Positions 3,649 to 38,064 of a stretch of 64,000 bases of DNA are shown here, piece after piece; positions within the stretch are counted from its first letter, which is position 1, and the number at the start of each line of letters is the position of its first letter. Origin of the DNA: Rubripirellula lacrimiformis (GTDB lineage Bacteria > Planctomycetota > Planctomycetia > Pirellulales > Pirellulaceae). The stretch spans positions 372,001 to 436,000 of the forward strand of contig NZ_CP036525.1 of NCBI RefSeq assembly GCF_007741535.1. Direction: 5' to 3'. Below the pieces are notes generated by a model. It was given only the letters and a program-made list of their open reading frames with translations, was not told where the DNA came from and made no database searches. A program made the translations under genes and the position numbers.

Positions 3649-4434
3649 CTAGCTGCCGAATGGATCGTCGCCAAACGGGTCTGCGCCGGCACCGCCGCCA
3701 CCGAACGGGTCGCTGTCCATTGCACCACCGCCACCGAATGGGTCGGCGCCGCTGTCGCCACCGGTCGAGAAGGGGTCTGAAGCAGGTGCGCCAGCTGGTG
3801 AATCACCGGCGGCAGGTGCACCGCTGTCGATCATCGGATCGTTCATCGCGTCGGCCAATGCGTCTTCGTTTTCGACTTTGGGCGTGCCCAGGTCATCGGC
3901 AAAGGGGTCTGAATCAGCGATCGGGGGCGCCGGAGGTGGTGTGACACCGGCACGTGGTTGAGTCGCCGCAGGTGCTGGTGAAGTGACGCCTGGGGCGGCA
4001 CCGATTTCGCCGTATCGTTGGCGCGATCGGGCTGCGGATTCAGCCAGATACTGCAACTTCGATTTCTGACGAATTTCTTCTAGCTTCAGTCGCCCGGCGC
4101 CCTGATAACGCGAAAGGGATCGGCCGATGTAACGGCTGCCCTTTCCGCTCGCTTCCAGATCCGCACCCAATTGCCAGTCCGATTCGGCCTCGTAAGGGCG
4201 ACCGGAATTGTGGGCGACGATACCGCGAAAGTAATACGCCCGTGGATCATCGATCCCGTTATTGATCGCCAACGACAGCAGGTCGTAGGCCTCGGTCGTG
4301 CGACCGGCATAGTAGGCGTGAACGCCCTGTCCGTAGAATTCTGACAGAACGGCACTTTGTCCCTGAGCCGATGAGCCACCGATCATGCTGGTGACGAAGG
4401 CACATGCGACCAGGCTTGATAGTAAGGTTTTCAT
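3649..4434 (-). CDS. secreted protein with TPR-like region and DPFGG tail
   Basis: A 261-residue exported protein. Residues 1-24 form a signal peptide (MKTLLSSLVACAFVTSMIGG, cleavage near SSA-QG). Residues 30-125 look like helical tetratricopeptide-type repeats (YGQGVHAYYAGRTTEAYDLLSLAI, then a second YYFRGIVAHNSGRPYEAESDW unit), so a binding or scaffolding role is plausible. From about 145 the chain is Pro/Ala-rich, and it ends in repeated Asp-Pro-Phe-Gly-Gly motifs (SDPFGG, ADPFGG, ADPFGD, DPFGS). DPF-type tails are frequent in planctomycete envelope proteins but have no established function. It is transcribed alone, with its own terminator. No enzyme motif is visible. Confidence 0.8.
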   Translation of the reverse strand: MKTLLSSLVACAFVTSMIGGSSAQGQSAVLSEFYGQGVHAYYAGRTTEAYDLLSLAINNGIDDPRAYYFRGIVAHNSGRPYEAESDWQLGADLEASGKGSRYIGRSLSRYQGAGRLKLEEIRQKSKLQYLAESAARSRQRYGEIGAAPGVTSPAPAATQPRAGVTPPPAPPIADSDPFADDLGTPKVENEDALADAMNDPMIDSGAPAAGDSPAGAPASDPFSTGGDSGADPFGGGGAMDSDPFGGGGAGADPFGDDPFGS

Positions 4435-24803: not shown

Positions 24804-24840
24804 TCGCCCCGGAAACCGCTGTCGTCGTCAGCGAGCGCAT

Positions 24841-26411
24841 CGTTTCACCGCGTGCCCAGCGGGCCGCGCGTGTCAGCGTATGGACGCACGGGGCGTTGCC
24901 CACGCGGTGAAACGATTGGGCCGTGAGGTGTGTTTCGTATGTTGGATAGCAGCGCGTCGTTTCACCGCGTCCCCAGCGGGCCGCGCGTGTGATTGTATGG
25001 ACGCACGGGGCGTTGCCCACGCGGTGAAACGATTAGGCCGTGGGGTGTGTTTCGCATGTTGGATAGTAGCGCCTCGTTTAACCGCGTGCCCAGCGGGCCG
25101 CGCGTGTCAGGTATGGACGCACGGGGCGTTGCCCACGCGGTGAAACGATTGGGCCGTGAGGTGTGTTTCGCATGTTGGATAGTAGCGCATCGTTTCACCG
25201 CGTGCCCAGCGGGCCGCGCGTGTGATTGTATGGACGCACGGGGCGTTGCCCACGCGGTGAAACGATTAGGCCGCGTGGTGTGTTTCGCATGTTGGATAGT
25301 AGCGCATCGTTTCACCGCGTGCCCACCGGGCCGCGCGTGTCAGGTATGGACGCATGGGGCGTTGCCCACGCGGTGAAACGATTAGGCCGTGAGGTGTGTT
25401 TCGTATGTTGGATAGCAGCGCCTCGTTTAACCGCGTGCCCAGCGGGCCGCGCGTGTGATTGTATGGACGCACGGGGCGTTGCCCACGCGGTTAAACGATT
25501 GGGCCGTGAGGTGTGTTTCGCATGTTGGATAGCATCGCGTCGTTTAACCGCGTGCCCAGCGGGCCGCGCGTGTCAGGTATGGACGCACGGGGCGTTGCCC
25601 ACGCGGTTAAACGATTGGGCCGTGAGGTGTGTTTCGCATGTTGGATAGCAGCGCGTCGTTTCACCGCGTGCCCAGCGGGCCGCGCGTGTGATTGTATGGA
25701 CGCACGGGGCGTTGCCCACGCGGTGAAACGATTGGGCCGTGGGGTGTGTTTCGCATGTTGGATAGCAGCGCCTCGTTTAACCGCGTGCCCAGCGGGCCGC
25801 GCGTGTGATTGTATGGACGCACGGGGCGTTGCCCACGCGGTTAAACGATTGGGCCGTGGTGTGTGTTTCGCATGTTGGATAGCAGCACATCGTTTAACCG
25901 CGTGCCCAGCGGGCCGCGCGTGTCAGGTATGGACGCACGGGGCGTTGCCCACGCGGTTAAACGATTGGGCCGTGGGGCGTGTTTCGCATGTTGGATAGCA
26001 GCGCCTCGTTTAACCGCGTGCCCACCGGGCCGCGCGTGTGATTGTATGGACGCACGGGGCGTTGCCCACGCGGTGAAACGATTAGGCCGTGAGGTGTGTT
26101 TCGCATGTTGGATAGTAGCGCCTCGTTTAACCGCGTGCCCAGCGGGCCGCGCGTGTGATTGTATGGACGCACGGGGCGTTGCCCACGCGGTGAAACGATT
26201 AGGCCGTGAGGTGTGTTTCGCATGTTGGATAGTAGCGCCTCGTTTAACCGCGTGCCCAGCGGGCCGCGCGTGTGATTGTATGGACGCACGGGGCGTTGCC
26301 CACGCGGTGAAACGATTGGGCCGTGGGGTGTGTTTCGTCGTCTGCTGTCGTTTCACCGCGTGCCCAGCGGGCCGCGCGTGTCATCGCGTGGGGCGTTGCC
26401 TGCGCGGTTCT
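24841..26411. repeat. array A: 14 tandem copies of a 116-117 bp BIME-like unit
   Basis: Left ends of the copies (motif CGTTTCACCGCG or CGTTTAACCGCG) lie at 24841, 24958, 25075, 25191, 25308, 25424, 25541, 25657, 25774, 25891, 26007, 26124, 26241 and 26349; the last copy is short and degenerate. Each unit contains two hairpins in opposite orientation. On the plus strand: foot GTTTCAC, then stem CGCG-(bulged T)-GCCC, loop AGC, and GGGC-CGCG. On the minus strand: foot GTTTCAC, then CGCG-(bulged T)-GGGC, loop AAC, GCCC and CGTG. Feet vary in concert (TCAC with GTGA, TTAAC with GTTAA) in 9 of the first 13 units. Frames reading through the array are artefacts. It lies between hemL and the DUF1552 gene. 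Confidence 0.95.
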
Positions 26412-27993: not shown

Positions 27994-30900
27994 TAAAGTT
28001 CGTCGTCCGCATGGCGGACGCGTTGATTCAAAAATGCTGGGCTGGTCACGATCGTTTCGATCATGCTGCCAAATCGATAGTCTTGGGACGCAAGGTTCGA
28101 TTTCATTCGTTCCACTAGCTGTTCATCGGAAAGCTGGACGGTTCGGCCCAAGCCGTATGCCAAAAGTTTGCGACACAGGTTGTCGATGAAGTCGTCTTCA
28201 CGTTCGGACCGAATGTACTGGCGCAGGCCGACGAGCCCGATTCCCTCGCTGGCGTCCGGAAAGACGACCGAACTGTCCACCGCCCGCCCGCCCAGATCCG
28301 TGTCACGCCATTCGCCCACTGGACCGTAGTTTTCAAACACCAACCCGAACGAATCGATCTTCTCGTGACAGGATGCACAACTTGGATGCTCGCGATGCTT
28401 CGCCAGCGCCTCTCGCAGCGTCAGTTCGCCCAATTTCGACTCATCCTCGGGCAATTCGGGAACCGTGGCGGGCGGGGCAGGGACGTGTTCGCCCAGGATC
28501 CGCTTGACCACCCAATTGCCACGTTTGACCGGGCTGGTCCGCAGCCCCGGTGACTGGTTGGTCAGGAAAACCGCCATCGGCAACAGGCCGCCGCGCTGGA
28601 ACGATCCGGCATCGTCGACGCGTTTCCACTGGTCACCGTCGATGTCGGTCGCCGGCATGCCATAGTGTTTTGCCAGTTCCGTATCCACGAACGTGTGATC
28701 CGCATACAGAAAATCCAGGATCGAACCGTCACGTTGGATCACATCCTCGACAAACCGGATCGGTTCGTCGTGCATCGATTGGCGAAGCTGGTCGGTGAAC
28801 GCTGGGAACCGTCCGCGGTCGACGCCGTTGTGCTGTTCGAATTGTCGAAAGTCCAGCCAGTTACCGACGAACTGGACGACAAAGCGTTGCACCCGAGCGT
28901 CCTGTAGCATCCGGTCGGTTTGGTCGATCAGGACATCGCGGTCGACCAACCGTCCCGATTCGGCTAGCTGCATCAGTTCCGCGTCCGGCATGCTGGCCCA
29001 CAGAAAATAGCTCAGTCGATTCGCGATCGCGTATCCGTCCAGAGGCTGGATTTCTGGTGCCGCGGATCCGTCGTCGGAACCGCTGCTGGCCGCGGGCGAC
29101 ACTCGATAACAGAATTGAGGCGACATCAGGATGCGTACCACGCTGTCGCGGATCGCTTCCTCGTGGGTCAGCCCGTCATCCTGGCGAAGGCTCTGGTAGA
29201 AATCGACAATGTCAGTCTGTTGTTGGGGCGTCAATGGACGACGAAAGGCGCGTTCGGCAAGTTGGACTACCGCTTCGATTTGTTTGGGTTCCGACTGCGC
29301 ACGTAAACGTTCTAGCCGTCGGAATGTTTTTGACATGTCGTCAAAGTATCGGTGGATGGCTGCCACGGATTCGTCGCTGCCACCCACTCGTTTGGCCTTC
29401 GACGTATAGGCCTCTTCCAGCCCGCGGACTTTCGATTCGTCCGAATTGCTTTTGTCTTCCGCACGGTATCGATCGAACACGCGGTCGCGCATGAACTGGC
29501 TGTCGGTTCGGTCGAACCAAATGAATCCGCTGTACTGCCGCATCGGTGCCGAGGCCACGAAATCCAGTTCCAGCCAAAGTCGATCCAATTCTTGCTGCTG
29601 GCTTTCGCTAAGCATCAAGTCGTAAAGCGGGGCATCGTCGCGAAAGTAGCCCATCTGACTGTGGAAGCCGGCGCTCAACAGTCGTCCGGAACGGCCCTGC
29701 TTGGCTTCCACGGCCGGATCCAGATAAGTCCGCGCCCGTTCGGATACAAAGAACGTATCGGGGAACACGTCACAGAACCTTTCCAGGGCACGGTCCATGG
29801 CTGTGGGGGCAGGCGAAGCTTCGTCGGCGTTCTCTGATGCCGAAGTTTCTGATGCCGAGTTTTCTGCGGTGGGATCCGGGGCATCGGCGGATTCCCGTTT
29901 CATCAGCCGGCTCGCTGGCGAATCGGGGGTCAGCCCAAAGTCGCCGTCGGGCAGTCCGCCGCCGGCATAGCGTCGACGGTTGGCGACAAACTGACGATTC
30001 TTCCAAAGCACCAGTGGCTGCGATCCTGGGTTCATCTGGGGCGACGTCAGATTCGGGACCTCGGGAACCAAGGCTTCTCGCAGTGTGGTCACCAGCGTCG
30101 CCATTTGTTGGCAGTCCGCCGCAGCCTTGGCTTGGTCATCGGGCGATGAACCGTCCGGCAGTTCGTTCCATATCGACTGCAGTGCTGCGATCGGGCCGAC
30201 GGGTTCGGCTGGCGAATGCAGCAGTTGCCATAGTGTTTCGGTGTACCGCTGGCTTAGCCCCGCATCTTTCGCTCGCCCGGATCGAGCCGCCGCGTCTTCG
30301 GATTCCTGCTTGGATTTCCACAGCGTTTCAAAGTACTTGGCATAGTCGGTGCATTGTTGCCGATAGAAGTCGACGATCCGATTGACACAGAACTTGTCGC
30401 GGTCCGTGTCCGTCATGACCGGGTGCGGGGCAAACGTGATCCCCGATGGCGTCAGCACCAAGTGGTCGGAAACGTGGCGGTTGGCGGCTAGATACTTCTT
30501 CAGCAAGACCGGAGACATCGTCAGCGAGTCACCCGAGTTGTCAAAGCCGGCTTCGTTGGCCGGGTCGATCGGGAATTCTGCAGCCGGTCGGATGTCGACG
30601 CCGGTCAGGTCGGCGATCGAGTGGTCGAACTCGGCATTGTTCAGCCGCCGAGCCAGCACGATTCCCGGGTCCCCGTCGGTACGATGTGCCTCGGCCTTTT
30701 TGACCTTTGTAATCCACTCGATGATCTGCTTGCGCTCGTCATCGCTAGGCTGCGGACCGGCGTCTTCCGGGGGCATATCGCCGTCGACAAGCCGCTGCAG
30801 AACCACGTTCCAGCGGCGAAAATTCTCAGTCACCGCAGCGGCGTTTTCGTCGGCGACCAGATCCAGGTCGCCTTCGCTGGTATCCCCGTTATGGCAGTCG

Positions 30901-31106
30901 GCACAATACGTCTGCACAAAGGGGCGGACCGTGTCGGCGAATGAGGATTCAGCAAGCGAGGATCCCGAAAGCGGGGCGCTGTCTGTCGCCGATGGGGTTG
31001 CCGAGGATGTGGCTGAGGGGCGGCTGGTGGACGGTTCGTCCACCGGCGGCTTGGCAGCCGTGACGGTTGCGGCAAGGCAAACCGGCAGCAAAATAGCGAA
31101 ACGCAT
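27993..31106 (-). CDS. planctomycete cytochrome c-like protein, DUF1587/1595/1592/1588/1585
   Basis: A 1037-residue exported protein with a signal peptide (MRFAILLPVCLAATVTA). A PSCyt1-type haem-binding motif YCADCH sits at residues 67-72, followed by the DUF1587, DUF1595, DUF1592, DUF1588 and DUF1585 series. A second CxxCH (CASCH) lies near residue 950, in the DUF1588 block HPSCASCHEKIDSFGL. The C-terminus has LCRKLLAYGLGRTVQL and the MIETIVTSPAFL motif of DUF1585. Family members act with DUF1552 partners, probably in extracytoplasmic redox or degradation of polymers; the substrate is unknown. I chose the start at 31106; an earlier in-frame ATG would add 49 basic residues without a signal peptide. 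Confidence 0.9.
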   Translation of the reverse strand: MRFAILLPVCLAATVTAAKPPVDEPSTSRPSATSSATPSATDSAPLSGSSLAESSFADTVRPFVQTYCADCHNGDTSEGDLDLVADENAAAVTENFRRWNVVLQRLVDGDMPPEDAGPQPSDDERKQIIEWITKVKKAEAHRTDGDPGIVLARRLNNAEFDHSIADLTGVDIRPAAEFPIDPANEAGFDNSGDSLTMSPVLLKKYLAANRHVSDHLVLTPSGITFAPHPVMTDTDRDKFCVNRIVDFYRQQCTDYAKYFETLWKSKQESEDAAARSGRAKDAGLSQRYTETLWQLLHSPAEPVGPIAALQSIWNELPDGSSPDDQAKAAADCQQMATLVTTLREALVPEVPNLTSPQMNPGSQPLVLWKNRQFVANRRRYAGGGLPDGDFGLTPDSPASRLMKRESADAPDPTAENSASETSASENADEASPAPTAMDRALERFCDVFPDTFFVSERARTYLDPAVEAKQGRSGRLLSAGFHSQMGYFRDDAPLYDLMLSESQQQELDRLWLELDFVASAPMRQYSGFIWFDRTDSQFMRDRVFDRYRAEDKSNSDESKVRGLEEAYTSKAKRVGGSDESVAAIHRYFDDMSKTFRRLERLRAQSEPKQIEAVVQLAERAFRRPLTPQQQTDIVDFYQSLRQDDGLTHEEAIRDSVVRILMSPQFCYRVSPAASSGSDDGSAAPEIQPLDGYAIANRLSYFLWASMPDAELMQLAESGRLVDRDVLIDQTDRMLQDARVQRFVVQFVGNWLDFRQFEQHNGVDRGRFPAFTDQLRQSMHDEPIRFVEDVIQRDGSILDFLYADHTFVDTELAKHYGMPATDIDGDQWKRVDDAGSFQRGGLLPMAVFLTNQSPGLRTSPVKRGNWVVKRILGEHVPAPPATVPELPEDESKLGELTLREALAKHREHPSCASCHEKIDSFGLVFENYGPVGEWRDTDLGGRAVDSSVVFPDASEGIGLVGLRQYIRSEREDDFIDNLCRKLLAYGLGRTVQLSDEQLVERMKSNLASQDYRFGSMIETIVTSPAFLNQRVRHADDEL

Positions 31107-31370: not shown

Positions 31371-31454
31371 GCCGAAGTGGCGGAATTGGCAGACGCGCTG
31401 GATTCAAAATCCAGTTGGTGCAAACCAGTGTGGGTTCGAGTCCCACCTTCGGTA
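31371..31454 (+). tRNA. tRNA-Leu (anticodon CAA)
   Basis: An 84-nt type II tRNA. The acceptor stem GCCGAAG pairs with CTTCGGT (31447-31453), with A as discriminator. The anticodon stem CTGGA/TCCAG encloses the loop TTCAAAA (anticodon CAA, reads UUG). A long variable arm (TTGGTGCAAACCAGT) and a T arm GTGGGTTCGAGTCCCAC are present. CCA is not encoded. The array-B repeats start about 90 bp downstream. Confidence 0.96.
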
Positions 31455-31467
31455 CTGATGAATCAAA

Positions 31468-31542: not shown

Positions 31543-33227
31543 GTGGGCCGCTGGACGTGAGTCCACGGGCCTTTATGTACGTCGTTTCGGTTTGGGTTGA
31601 ATCCTTCGGGGGAGGGATGGGCCCGGCCGCTCACGCGATCACGGCTCACGGTGTTGGCTGGCTTTTGTGAGCCGCTGGACGTGAGTCCACGGGCCTTTTT
31701 GTCCGTCGTTTCGGTTCGGGTTGAATCCTTCAGGGGAGTGCTTGGCCCGGCCGCTCACGCGATCACGGCTCACGGTGTTGGCTGGCTTCGTGAGCCGCTG
31801 GACGTGAGTCCACGGGCCTTTATGTACGTCGTTTCTTTTCGGATTGAATCCTTCAGGGGAGTGCTTGGCCCGGCCGCTCACGCGATCACGGCTCACAGTG
31901 TTGGCCGGCTTTTGTGAGCCGCTGGACGTGAGTCCACGGGCCTTTATGTACGTCGTTTCGGTTCGGGTTGAATCCTTCTGGGGAGGGCTGGGCCCGGCCG
32001 CTCACGCGATCACGGCTCACGGTGTTGGCTGGCTGCGTGAGCCGCTGGACGTGAGTCCACGGGCCTTTATGTCCGTCGATTCTTTTCGGGTCGAATCCTT
32101 CAGGGGAGTGCTTGGCCCGGCCGCTCACGCGATCACGGCTCACAGTGTTGGCTGGCTTTGTGAGCCGCTGGACGTGAGTCCATGGGCCTTTATGTACGTC
32201 GTTTCTTTTCGGGGCGAATCCTTCTGGGGAGGACTGGGCCCGGCCGCTCACGCGATCACGGCTCACAGTGTTGGCCGGCTTTTGTGAGCCGCTGGACGTG
32301 AGTCCACGGGCCTTTATGTACGTCGTTTCGGTTCGGGTTGAATCCTTCTGGGGAGGGCTGGGCCCGGCCGCTCACGCGATCACGGCTCACAGTGTTGGCC
32401 GGCTTCGTGAGCCGCTGGACGTGAGTCCACGGGCCTTTATGTACGTCGTTTCGGTTTGGGTTGAACGCTTCAGGGGAGTGCTTGGCCCGGCCGCTCACGC
32501 GATCACGGCTCACGGTGTTGGCCGGCTTTGTGAGCCGCTGGACGTGAGTCCACGGGCCTTTATGTCCGTCGTTTCGGTTTGGGTTGAACGCTTCAGGGGA
32601 GTGCTTGGCCCGGCCGCTCACGCGATCACGGCTCACAGTGTTGGCTGGCTGCGTGAGCCGCTGGACGTGAGTCCCCGGGCATTGTTGTCCGTCGTTTCGG
32701 TTTGGGTTGGACGCTTGTGGTGAGGACTAGGCCCGGCCGCTTACGCGATCACGGCTCACAGTGTTGGCCGGCTTCGTGATCCGCTGGACGTGAGTCCACG
32801 GGCATTGTTGTCCGTCGTTTCGGTTTGGGGAGAATGATTCAGGGGAGTGCTTGGCCCGGCCGCTCACGCGATCACGGCTCACAGTGTTGGCTGGCTTTTG
32901 TGGGCCGCTGGACGTGAGTCCACGGGCAATGTTGTCCGTCGATTCTTTTCGGGTCGAATCCTTCAGGGGAGTGCTGGGCCCGGCCGCTTACGCGATCACG
33001 GCTCACAGTGTTGGCCGGCTTTTGTGAGCCGCTGGACGTGAGTCCCCGGGCGTTGTTGTCCGTCGGTTTGGTTTGGGTTGAACGCTTCAGGGGAGGACTG
33101 GGCCCGGCCGCTTACGCGATCACGGCTCACGGTGTTGGCCGGCTGCGTGAGCCGCTGGACGTGAGTCCACGGGCCTTTATGTCCGTCGTTTCGGTTTGGA
33201 TTGAATCCTTCAGGGGAGGGCTGGGCC
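31543..33227. repeat. array B block 1: BIME-like repeats, 13 full copies plus 5' part of the 14th
   Basis: Units of 123-124 bp begin at 31543, 31667, 31790, 31914, 32037, 32160, 32284, 32407, 32530, 32653, 32776, 32900, 33024 and 33147. Each carries element L on the plus strand: foot GTGA (or GTGG), outer stem GCC/GGC, a 2-nt mismatch GC versus CG, inner stem TGGAC/GTCCA, tetraloop GTGA. After about 55 bp follows element R on the minus strand: GTGAGCCG ... CGGCCGGGCC. A 16-17 bp linker (GTGTTGGC and similar) joins the units. The fourteenth unit is cut by the IS at 33228. Block 1 starts about 40 bp after the tRNA-Leu terminator. Confidence 0.95.
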
Positions 33228-33257
33228 CTCTTTATCCTACACATCTTTCTTGAGACA

Positions 33258-33289
33258 CTCCGTCCCTGACATTTCTTCAAGGGACGGAG
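33258..33289 (+). promoter_or_regulatory. hairpin covering the transposase ribosome-binding site
   Basis: Perfect 10-bp inverted repeat CTCCGTCCCT (33258-33267) and AGGGACGGAG (33280-33289) with a 12-nt loop. The right arm contains the GGAG Shine-Dalgarno of the transposase ATG at 33298. In transcripts entering from outside, the whole hairpin is present and should hide this site, the strategy known from IS10 and IS50. Confidence 0.75.
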
Positions 33290-33297
33290 ATGATTCG

Positions 33298-34731
33298 ATG
33301 TGTCCAGGATGGATTGAGGAAGAGACTCGGACTTTGGACCTGGGTGACAAGCGTCGAAGTAAACGCTTCAGGCGAATTCTTGAGCAGTTCGATCAGGTAG
33401 CGCCCTCGACACCGGCGGCGTGCGGAGAAGTTGCAGACCTCACTGCCACTTACCGGCTTTTCAACACCCCCAGTGTGAACTGGATGGCAATTCTGCAGCC
33501 CCATAATCAAGCCACGATGGAGCGGTCAGCCAAGTACGATGTCGTCGTGCTGGCACAGGACACCACCGTTTGCGATCTCACCAAACCTTCGCGTCAAGTC
33601 GTCGGTGCCGGGCCTCTGGAGGACGTAAAAAAGCGGGGATTCTTTCTGCATCCGCTTTATGCCGTCACTCTCGATGGTCTCGTCTTGGGTTGCGTTGACC
33701 AACTTATCTGGACACGTGACTCGATTCGCCAAAACGTGGGCAAAGCTCAACGCGATCGCGAGATCAGGACCATGGCGTTTGAAGAAAAGGAAAGCGCTCG
33801 TTGGCTTGAACTGATGCAAAGCGGCGAACAGATCGCTCTGGCAAACCCTCAAACTCATTACATCGGCGTCTCGGACAGCGAATCAGACATCTACGAGTTG
33901 CTCATCCAGAACAATGATCTGGCCGAAAACTATGATTTCGTTATCCGCGGATGTCAGGATCGGCGAGTCTATCTTGGCTCTGCTGAACAACCCAAGGTGC
34001 TGAGCGAGGCGATTGCCGAAGTCCCTTTTTCGCACGAATTTGAAGTCAGTGTTTCGCCACGAAAGTCGTTAATTAGCGGTGAAAGCCGCAAACGCCGAAG
34101 CAACCGCGACGGCCGCACGGCAACGATCTCGGTTCGTGCGAAGACGGTTCAAGTGCATGGCCCGCAGCGTCCCGGCGGAAAGGTTGCTCGCGTGGAGCTT
34201 CAAGTTGTCGAAGCGGTTGAGCTTGATCCTCCGGTGGGGTGCGAGCCGATCCACTGGGTACTCTTTACTTCACTCGCGGTGACCAGCTTGGCTCAGATCG
34301 AGCTAGTTTTATCAGCATACTGCAGGCGCTGGGACATCGAGGTTTTTTTCAAGACGCTCAAGAGCGGGATGAGGATAGAGAAGCTGAAGTATCAAAGTAT
34401 TGACGCATATTTGAACGCTGTGGCCGCCTTGATGATCACGGCATTCCGAGTCGAGCAACTTAAAAGCGCTTCGCGTGTCACTCCGGAGGCAAGCTGCGGG
34501 GCGATCTACGATGCGACGTTTTGGCAAGCGGTGATGACGGTCGTTGAAGGCGGTGTTTTGCACAGCGATACCCCACCGACGCTGAAAGATTTTTGTCGAG
34601 TGATTGCCAAACTAGGTGGCTACGTAGACCAACACGGGCAAGGACCTCCAGGCTCGACGACCATCTGGCGTGGTCTGCTCAAAGCCCATGCCTACCACGA
34701 AGCCTATTTGGCAATCAAAGGCTTAAAATAG
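33298..34731 (+). CDS. IS4-family transposase, IS50 (Tn5) group
   Basis: A 477-residue DDE transposase, nearly the length of Tn5 transposase. The N-terminal Tn5-type DNA-binding domain shows LGDKRRSKRF and LTATYRLFNT. Catalytic residues: Asp88 in VVVLAQDTT, Asp193 in GVSDSESDIYE, Glu348 in YCRRWDIEVFFKTLKSG (the YREK-like signature). It cuts and rejoins DNA at the flanking 19-bp repeats. I prefer the ATG at 33298 (MCPGWIEEETRTLDLGD), preceded by GGACGGAG at a proper distance, over a TTG at 33250. The reading frame is intact, so the element may be active. Confidence 0.95.
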   Translation: MCPGWIEEETRTLDLGDKRRSKRFRRILEQFDQVAPSTPAACGEVADLTATYRLFNTPSVNWMAILQPHNQATMERSAKYDVVVLAQDTTVCDLTKPSRQVVGAGPLEDVKKRGFFLHPLYAVTLDGLVLGCVDQLIWTRDSIRQNVGKAQRDREIRTMAFEEKESARWLELMQSGEQIALANPQTHYIGVSDSESDIYELLIQNNDLAENYDFVIRGCQDRRVYLGSAEQPKVLSEAIAEVPFSHEFEVSVSPRKSLISGESRKRRSNRDGRTATISVRAKTVQVHGPQRPGGKVARVELQVVEAVELDPPVGCEPIHWVLFTSLAVTSLAQIELVLSAYCRRWDIEVFFKTLKSGMRIEKLKYQSIDAYLNAVAALMITAFRVEQLKSASRVTPEASCGAIYDATFWQAVMTVVEGGVLHSDTPPTLKDFCRVIAKLGGYVDQHGQGPPGSTTIWRGLLKAHAYHEAYLAIKGLK

Positions 34732-34748
34732 ATGTGTAGGATAAAGAG

Positions 34749-35275
34749 GGCTTGGCCCGGCCGCTCACGCGATCACGGCTCACGGTGTTGGCTGGCTGCG
34801 TGAGCCGCTGGACGTGAGTCCACGGGCATTGTTGTCCGTCGTTTCGGTTTGGGTTGAACGCTTGTGGTGAGGACTGGGCCCGGCCGCTTACGCGATCACG
34901 GCTCACGGTGTTGGCTGGCTTCGTGAGCCGCTGGACGTGAGTCCACGGGCCTTTATGTCCGTCGATTCTTTTCGGGTCGAATCCTTCAGGGGAGTGCTTG
35001 GCCCGGCCGCTCACGCGATCACGGCTCACGGTGTTGGCCGGCTTTGTGAGCCGCTGGACGTGAGTCCACGGGCAATGTTGTCCGTCGATTCTTTTCGGGT
35101 CGAATCCTTCTGGGGAGGACTGGGCCCGGCCGCTCACGCGATCACGGCTCACAGTGTGGGCCGGCTTCGTGATCCGCTGGACGTGAGTCCCCGGGCGTTG
35201 TTGTCCGTCGTTTCTTTTCGGATTGAATCCTTCAGGGGAGTGCTTGGCCCGGCCGCTCACGCGATCACGGCTCAC
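34749..35275. repeat. array B block 2: 3' part of unit 14 plus units 15-18
   Basis: The array resumes after the IS with the right part of the interrupted unit (GGCTTGGCCC onward), then full units starting at 34800, 34923, 35046 and 35169. The last one ends at the R element GATCACGGCTCAC (to 35275), and the RAYT-like gene region begins without a linker. Two L elements have feet or loops that differ from consensus (for example GTGATCC at 35169). Confidence 0.93.
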
Positions 35276-35346
35276 ATTCTTGCGTCTCCAACCGCTAAAA
35301 TCTGTCGTTCGCTTTTCGTCACTCATTCCGTTTTTGGGCAACGACG

Positions 35347-35829
35347 ATGCCAGATGGACCACTTGCCTACTTCCTCACTTGGACGGTTTACGGAACGTTC
35401 TTGCCAGGCGACGCACGTTGGTGGCGGCACCGAAAACAAGGCGCGGCCGTACCTTCTGCCGGCCTGCGGCAATGGTCGAAGGACCGCCTTGCTCACCCTG
35501 TCAAACTGCTCTCGCCTGATGACCGCGTCGTTTGCGAATCCGCGATCGACGAAATTTGTGCTTTTCGCGGTTGGGATCAATGGGCCCGATCTGCTCGATC
35601 CAATCACGTGCATGTTCTCGTCACGGCGACAGACAGGAAGCCGGAGTTGATACGCGATCAGCTCAAATCGAAATGTACGCTCGAGTTACGGTCGGCGAAT
35701 TCAGGTTTCGCCGACCGACCTATATGGACCACGCGAGGTGACATTGAATTCATCGATACGGAGGATGAAATCAACGAATGTGTTATCTATATCAACGAGG
35801 CCCAGGACCGAATGAATCGCGAACCGTAA
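35347..35829 (+). CDS. REP-associated tyrosine transposase (RAYT-like, Y1/HUH fold)
   Basis: A 160-residue Y1-transposase family protein (IS200/TnpA_REP relatives). The N-terminus YFLTWTVYGTFLPGD is the family opening strand. The HUH motif is Asn-His-Val-His at 86-89 (SNHVHVLVTA). A C-terminal Tyr148 (NECVIYINEAQ) is the likely nucleophile, following the block WTTRGDIEFIDTEDEIN. It would nick single-stranded hairpins next to a short foot. The gene sits between array-B units (18 units on its left, one on its right, 71 and 19 bp away), as RAYT genes do with their REP elements. The frame is complete. Whether it acts on these repeats is inference; it could also be a domesticated housekeeping protein. 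Confidence 0.88.
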   Translation: MPDGPLAYFLTWTVYGTFLPGDARWWRHRKQGAAVPSAGLRQWSKDRLAHPVKLLSPDDRVVCESAIDEICAFRGWDQWARSARSNHVHVLVTATDRKPELIRDQLKSKCTLELRSANSGFADRPIWTTRGDIEFIDTEDEINECVIYINEAQDRMNREP

Positions 35830-35848
35830 CAAAACCCGGCCCATACTC

Positions 35849-35955
35849 GTGGGCCGCTGGACGTGAGTCCCCGGGCATTGTTGTCCGTCGTTTCGGTTTG
35901 GGTTGAACGCTTCAGGGGAGTGCTTGGCCCGGCCGCTCACGCGATCACGGCTCAC
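35849..35955. repeat. array B unit 19, on the far side of the RAYT-like gene
   Basis: A single full unit with L foot GTGGGCC (same as unit 1 at 31543), inner stem TGGAC/GTCC and a terminal R element (GATCACGGCTCAC, ending 35955). A partial linker GTGTTGGCTGGCTGCG follows to about 35972 and the array stops. Units 1 and 19 share the sequence CTCGTGGGCCGCTGG at their outer left edge. Confidence 0.93.
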
Positions 35956-37995: not shown

Positions 37996-38064
37996 GTGAG
38001 CCGCGATCGCGTAAGCGGCCGGGAATCCCCCCCGCTGCCCTTGGCCTCACGGCCAGCGGCTCAC
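37996..38064. repeat. solo array-B BIME in reversed order (R then L)
   Basis: Plus strand: R element GTGAGCCGCGATCGCG TAAG and GCGGCCGGG (37996-38023), a 13-bp spacer, then the complement of element L (38037-38064). In this L copy the inner stem is TGGCC/GGCCA instead of TGGAC/GTCCA, a compensatory change. The GC/AG mismatch, GCC/GGC outer stem, GTGA loop and GTGA foot remain. It lies downstream of the C39-like gene, 2 kb from the array. Confidence 0.85.

Follow-up and report, generated by a model that had tools for sequence, protein, structure and literature searches.

The window, that is, the whole 64,000-nucleotide stretch of Rubripirellula lacrimiformis DNA analysed here, carries the gene of a Y1/HUH transposase of 160 aa (TnpA; 35347..35829, forward strand) within an array of 19 L and 19 R hairpins, R being inverse to L. 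The L copies run from 31543-31570 to 35849-35876, 18 of them upstream and one downstream of the gene, and the R copies from 31621-31649 through 35927-35955. TRF gives the array a period of 123 with 88-91% matches and, together with a copy search, bears out the layout proposed in an earlier sequence-only reading of this DNA (19 units of 123-124 bp with paired inverted elements, 18 + 1 around the gene). Inverse hairpin pairs with linkers, repeated in tandem as they are here, have the organization of BIMEs. Block 1 (31543..33228, forward strand) comprises 14 L and 13 inverted R hairpins, block 2 (34748..35275, forward strand) comprises 4 L and 5 R hairpins immediately upstream of the gene, and unit 19 (35849..35955, forward strand), made up of the last L and R copies, lies on its 3' side. 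The two blocks are divided by an IS4-family insertion sequence of 1519 bp (33229..34747, forward strand) with terminal inverted repeats, bordered by an 11-bp repeat (10/11 matching) and containing a transposase ORF at about 33298-34731 (NF033590, E 2.3e-87); this element was absent from the earlier account of the array. TRF also detects a second array, of a different family, about 5 kb away.

A representative L element (34800..34827, forward strand) has a GTGA foot, a GGAC/GTCC stem and a C(GTGA)G loop, and its foot is separated by 16 nt from that of a representative R element (34755..34783, reverse strand), which also has a GTGA foot and, like the window R hairpin in general, folds more weakly than L under DNA energy parameters. 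The L feet are GTGA in 16 of the 19 copies, two of which read on with TCC and not GCC, and GTGG in the remaining three, as the sequence-only reading had described. The tetraloop that it assigned to L was also recovered, but the internal mismatch was not: in the same energy fold, the CCG/CGG outer stem and an inner stem of five pairs are separated at position 9 by a single bulged nucleotide and not by a 2x2 mismatch.

Taken alone, the window TnpA matches no Pfam or NCBIfam family, and Y1_Tnp matches 57 of 61 aligned relatives (the window protein plus 60 of 80 fetched loci; 76 of the 80 passed and four failed a check for stops and length, and 16 further loci were left out by choice). Its motifs SNHVH, IWTT and YINEAQ correspond to the class-3 set NHVH, W[TA] and Y----Q. 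The residues concerned (H87-x-H89, W127, Y148 and Q153) are invariant in 15 aligned sequences and invariant or above 90% in the 61-sequence alignment, some relatives having WS. The predicted structure has the HUH/Y1 fold and matches IS200/IS605 as well as REP-bound TnpA structures, the closest solved folds by Z being IS200/IS605 transposases. IS200/IS605 transposases recognise single-stranded hairpins, as in the solved complexes 2a6o and 2xm3, which are among the structures matched, and the predicted fold and the HUH and Y1 residues are what the window protein appears to share with those of IS608 and ISDra2. That the locus is an ordinary IS200/IS605 element with the hairpins as its ends, a reading to which these nearest folds lend themselves, nevertheless seems highly improbable, as it has no bounded element, the gene is single copy at 100% in the genome with a next match only 33% identical, and the hairpins form 19 pairs where such an element would have a single left and a single right end.

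The class 3 TnpA_Y1, a protein cluster found mainly in Planctomycetes, was reported in 2018 as REPtron-like and as a rare group that may stand midway between IS200/IS605 and RAYT systems (Quentin et al. 2018, PMC6006769). The available part of that paper describes class-3 genes, with NHVH, W[TA] and Y----Q motifs, as having on their flanks repeated hairpins whose copy number in the genome can be high, which agrees with the 19 L and 19 R hairpins of the window and the 143 L-type hairpins of the genome; it differs in giving the foot as CnGA, against GTGA here, and no mention of a tandem array, a tetraloop rule or co-diversification was found in it for class 3. The class 2 systems (RAYT/TnpA_REP) resemble the window, as far as the available parts of the sources go, in having an HUH/Y1 protein adjoining inverted hairpin pairs, a 5' foot, a bulged stem and BIME-like arrays, but they have YxxxNP in place of YINEAQ and a GT[AG]G foot in place of a mostly GTGA one, and the outer stem is short in the window (PMC8266576, PMC6006769). 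Judged by its motifs, the protein is therefore class-3-like and not the classical RAYT to which it had first been likened. Rhodopirellula baltica is also rich in palindromes and tyrosine transposases (Di Nocera et al. 2013, PMC3733652); according to the accessible portion of that report, the GTAG REPs and TIRtrons described there are likewise planctomycete palindromes adjoining tyrosine transposases, but marked by a GTAG tag or by long terminal inverted repeats.

Association of such genes with repeats extends well beyond the window. From 501 stretches with class-3 relatives 80 loci were kept, 58 of these, having 800 bp on either side, were listed, and 46 of the 58 were paired with far flanks; repeats adjoin the gene in 36/46 loci and in 0/46 of the paired far flanks. 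No repeated 12-mer was found near the gene in the other 10 of the 46, and among the 30 TnpA loci examined at the outset, 6 had no 14-mer present three times. The repeat sequence co-diversifies with TnpA (Mantel r 0.50, 0/2000 permutations; 64 of 82 loci, those with at least five repeated 9-mers, the run being repeated on 63 loci without a paralogue), and does so independently of flank homology, although the p-values overstate independence because the counted loci and elements are partly related and some come from one genome. Tandem arrays of these hairpins far from the window TnpA, and the other-family array near the window array, are what would be expected if the array were a passive satellite produced by slippage or recombination, with the transposase there by chance. 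That reading is already contradicted by the comparison with far flanks and by the flank-independent co-diversification, and we regard it as very improbable. The proposal of a planctomycete REPtron is, on the same evidence, well supported, as repeats flank most of the class-3 TnpAs tested.

In 28 of 30 loci, taking either strand, the tetraloop most often repeated is c(GNNA)g. Among 45 locus consensuses of relatives the feet include GTGA, CTGA, ATCA, ATTA, GTTA and others; a C-G closed GNNA loop was required of these hairpins, so that they describe foot and stem and are no test of the loop. The stems covary, the inner-stem position 10-23 pairing in only 43/87 elements. In a run that required GTGAGCC and a GYNA loop of the elements, the stem test, which pools L and R, is alone independent of this choice. 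The d(cGNNAg) loop is an unusually stable DNA tetraloop, on which a literature search returned no paper. An alternative reading of the hairpins is that they are RNA terminators or attenuators, but loops such as GTTA and GCTA are compatible with DNA GNNA and not with RNA GNRA, and a common c(GNNA)g loop would argue for recognition of single-stranded DNA rather than RNA. Tentatively, and at somewhat less than even odds, we suggest that class-3 TnpAs of Planctomycetes have one common hairpin code with REPtron-private subtypes: the foot would mostly be NTNA, the outer stem short (CCG/CGG) and the bulge one or two nucleotides long, and a c(GNNA)g DNA tetraloop would close the inner stem, itself a species-specific key co-evolving with the protein. 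Each REPtron's array subtype would be distinct from the dispersed population of its genome.

Class-2 transposases were also considered as the cognate enzymes of L and R and rejected: at PF01797 loci (4 own-genome and 30 related matches, about 1.5 kb on each side, including 6/8 of the matches in G265, 5/5 in G218 and 2/2 in G199) there is no GTGAGCCG array apart from L201, which carries L-type arrays and whose gene is the class-3 one also found as L094. A tetraloop hairpin is repeated at least three times in 7/28 class-2 loci; the main tetraloop is GNNA in two, L178 (C-G closed, with four GTGAGCCACC elements of another type) and L200 (T-A closed), and the second repeated tetraloop is GNNA in L190.

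A genome search for L, suggested by the sequence-only reading, returned 110 L-type hairpins with the window letters (up to 3 mismatches) and 143 with the genome consensus, against 0 with the reversed pattern, which excludes chance. In other genomes the reversed control reaches 4, and counts of about 4 or fewer are accordingly noise there. Among 13 genomes of the genus, more than 3 copies occur only in the two with close TnpA orthologues; the expectation that copies follow the gene thus holds within the genus but only in part across 297 genomes, in which 12 have at least 10 L copies and 5 of these 12 (G191, G199, G218, G265 and G269, of which two are single-contig) lack a TnpA surrounded by L hairpins. 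A class-3 TnpA profile search of G199, G218 and G265, with 18, 120 and 303 L-type copies, found none. Genome counts include local copies at TnpA loci; less those inside the fetched loci, 124 remain in R. lacrimiformis, about 145 in G277, about 60 in G202, about 23 in G222, about 18 in G287, and 4 each in G173 and G293.

The L type of the window array (GGAC/GTCC) is confined to it, with 19/19 copies inside and none elsewhere, so that in this genome the local subtype shows no sign of having dispersed. Similarly, 12 of the 13 GGAC-type L in G202 are in or at its TnpA array, and the type is otherwise limited to single copies in G098, G122, G218 and G277 among the 297 genomes. The window TnpA could accordingly serve only its private array, the dispersed GGCC-type L/R being left over from a different TnpA of this clade that may since have been lost, all the more as genomes with many L copies and no class-3 TnpA occur. 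We consider this unlikely, since array R and dispersed R have a 24-nt core in common (the bases after it differ) and a G/A variant of it in both, and since the dispersed L consensus has the same GTGA foot and tetraloop as the array L, the A/T to C/G change between the two retaining pairing.

A dN/dS of about 0.14 indicates that the TnpA gene is under purifying selection. With its single copy and the lack of a near-identical second one, this would suit a domesticated host factor that has ceased to move the hairpins and binds them in repair, replication or the control of expression, but such a role appears decidedly unlikely: in two genus members, whose TnpA proteins are 77% identical (the R. 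obstinata protein being the one compared with that of the window), gene and array occupy non-corresponding loci with different spacers (the G202 locus and the window have only these in common), and tandem arrays of the hairpins elsewhere in the genome, far from TnpA, each have their own spacers and periods.

We therefore favour, with a probability of roughly 0.65, a class-3 TnpA_Y1 REPtron, in which a single-copy HUH/Y1 endonuclease gene lies within an array of its cognate hairpins. Recognition, cutting and moving of the hairpins by TnpA are what we infer from these comparisons. The enzyme probably recognises the array hairpins as single-stranded DNA; it would bind the exposed strand on which the 5' GTGA foot and the bulged, C(GTGA)G-capped hairpin lie, cut beside the hairpin at a dinucleotide set by pairing with the foot, and re-join or insert L/R pairs. 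Provided that the foot directs cutting here as it does in IS608 and TnpA_REP, a GTGA foot would predict TC as this dinucleotide. The dispersing unit would be the L-R pair, and a landed pair could be locally amplified, by TnpA or by recombination, into an array bearing that site's own spacer. Planctomycete class-3 genes were already known to be REPtron-like, as the available part of PMC6006769 indicates, and the window is a further such pair; in these little-studied gene-repeat pairs, gene and repeats vary together from one species to the next. The data supply many naturally occurring combinations of TnpA and hairpin that have diverged jointly, among them those of the two congeneric genomes, and a genome on a single contig whose hairpins are orphans. 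How REP systems arose, and by what code a small HUH protein reads a hairpin, can therefore be tested directly.

An empty/occupied site pair was sought through G270, in which the large gene that borders the array on its left (27996-31106) has a 65% match; none was found in the 14 kb taken, where this gene and the one to its left were all that was recovered and neither a tRNA nor a tandem array occurs, so that a clean empty site could not be defined. To the right of the array, a separate dispersed-type pair of the same L/R family is present at 37996..38064, with R (2 mismatches) on the forward strand and a GGCC-type L on the reverse strand.

The array occupies positions 31543-35955 of the window, itself 372001-436000 of the contig, and comprises, as the sequence-only reading had counted, 19 units of 123-124 bp with two inverted palindromic elements each, giving 19 L hairpins on the plus strand and 19 inverted R hairpins. 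It is interrupted twice, by an IS4-family element (33229-34747) and by the gene for the 160-aa TnpA (35347-35829). The terminal inverted repeats of the IS4-family element match each other, and it is bordered by 11-bp repeat copies (GGGCTGGGCCC and GGGCTTGGCCC, 10/11 identical). A tRNA-Leu (CAA) gene lies immediately left of the array (31371-31455); no tRNA was found in the 14 kb examined around the gene of another genome, G270, that matches the large gene left of the array.

A search with the hairpin element across the single 8.54-Mb contig of Rubripirellula lacrimiformis, which the same reading had proposed, recovered 110 L-type sites with the window letters as query (at most 3 mismatches) and 143 with the genome consensus GTGAGCCGCTGGCCGTGAGGCC, the reversed-pattern control giving 0 sites with either query. 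Arrays elsewhere in this genome carry the same L and R, with spacers and periods specific to each array (for example about 96, 167, 171, 184 and 270 bp). In dispersed pairs the 3' ends of L and R usually point toward each other, and sequence outside the feet is also conserved in part. Among 87 distinct elements, 81% of inner-stem cells are paired, against 18-44% with one arm slid and 59% (sd 1.7) with shuffling; this pairing comes mostly from four of the five positions, the outermost being paired in only 43/87 elements.

The stem is GGAC/GTCC in 19/19 window L copies and GGCC/GGCC in most dispersed copies, a paired change in which both arms are altered. All 19 GGAC-subtype copies of the genome lie within the window array. 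Rubripirellula obstinata CECT 8602 (G202), a genus member with a 77% identical TnpA, has 13, of which 12 are in or at its TnpA array and one is at 12 kb distance, and single occurrences were found in G098, G122, G218 and G277. That the GGAC subtype is private to the array shows that array and dispersed hairpins have separate histories. The G098 occurrence belongs to a single GGAC-subtype pair at about 3880-3975 of locus L285, on a 5.5-kb contig (G098:C521) of this genus member, which is without the TnpA gene.

Other transposase genes of R. lacrimiformis are set among other palindromes. A class-3 paralogue at 7485755, 33% identical to the window TnpA, is flanked by AACCCGAAGCGTGAGCGAGGGA palindromes (together 7485.4-7486.4 kb, locus L088 3392-4342), and a YxxxNP-type HUH frame at 5222207 lies among palindromes of the TCGTTTAACCGCGTG... 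family. The latter family also makes up a second window array (24834-26337, copies to about 26379; unit about 117 bp; 13 + 14 inverted palindromes). With the window array this makes three gene-repeat pairs in one genome, and the pattern of one gene and one family supports specific recognition. A broken extra piece of the paralogue gene adjoins the paralogue, and two neighbouring Y1 gene stretches, bordered by AAAAGAGTCCTGACACCTTTTTC inverted repeats, lie at 2853121-2856462 inside direct repeats that share 300 identical nt at a distance of 409 bp.

If TnpA acts as TnpA_REP and IS608 do (PMC8266576), it would bind the footed strand, cut close to the hairpin at a dinucleotide pairing with foot bases, and carry out strand transfer; under that rule a GTGA foot would predict TC as the dinucleotide. 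Local growth of the array could be due either to TnpA or to recombination. Among the matches listed for RAYT or REPtron in planctomycetes, for RAYT with REPIN, for TnpAREP and for Rubripirellula transposases, from a collection lacking many subscription papers, no title concerned the window array, and "repetitive extragenic palindromic" with Rhodopirellula gave no match. The terms GNNA, tetraloop and tandem are absent from the main text of PMC6006769.

The expected correspondence between copy number and presence of the gene holds within the genus, where close TnpA orthologues and more than 3 L-type copies are both found in R. lacrimiformis and R. obstinata only (13 genomes). The gene neighbourhood and array spacer of the R. 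obstinata TnpA are both unlike those of the window. Across the order the correspondence holds only in part; relatives of TnpA (E <= 1e-5) are present in 117/297 genomes and 12/297 are L-rich (at least 10 L-type sites). TnpA lies amid L-type hairpins in seven of these 12: R. lacrimiformis (143 sites), R. obstinata (70), G173 (10), G222 (30), G277 (152), G287 (27) and G293 (12). The class-3 TnpAs of G191 (42) and G269 (117) neighbour repeats of other kinds. Profile searches found no class-3 TnpA in G199 (18), G218 or G265, and none of their fetched class-2 Y1 genes has GTGAGCCG arrays. The TnpA-bearing contig of G218 may simply be missing from its assembly. The orphan hairpins, 303 in the single-contig G265 and 120 in the 170 contigs of G218, offer material for testing persistence once the gene is lost.

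The 84,980 species scanned in genome_contigs yielded 501 stretches encoding a relative, of which the best 80 loci were kept; some loci in these class-wide counts share a genome or come from related species, and their independence is incomplete. Within 800 bp of the gene, a 12-mer occurs at least 3 times in 36 of the 46 long-flanked loci among the best 80, against 0/46 at the distant ends of those stretches. In the order search a 14-mer was present at least 3 times in 24 of 30 TnpA loci, and 6 had no 14-mer that often. TnpA identity is correlated with shared repeat 9-mers across 64 of 82 loci, those with at least five repeated 9-mers (Mantel r 0.50, 0/2000 permutations). In 63 loci, with the paralogue left out, the shared repeat fraction rises from 0.007 at 30-40% identity to 0.384 at 70-90%, whereas shared single-copy flank 9-mers stay flat (0.018-0.032) across those ranges. 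A tetraloop hairpin is repeated at least 3 times in 30 of 81 loci scanned, and in 28 of these 30 the commonest repeated tetraloop is GNNA with a C-G closing pair. Among class-2 loci such repetition occurs in 7/28, the main tetraloop being GNNA in 2, one of them C-G closed. GNNA loops on either strand account for 98/563 hairpins present once, 22/30 present twice and 36/44 present at least 3 times.
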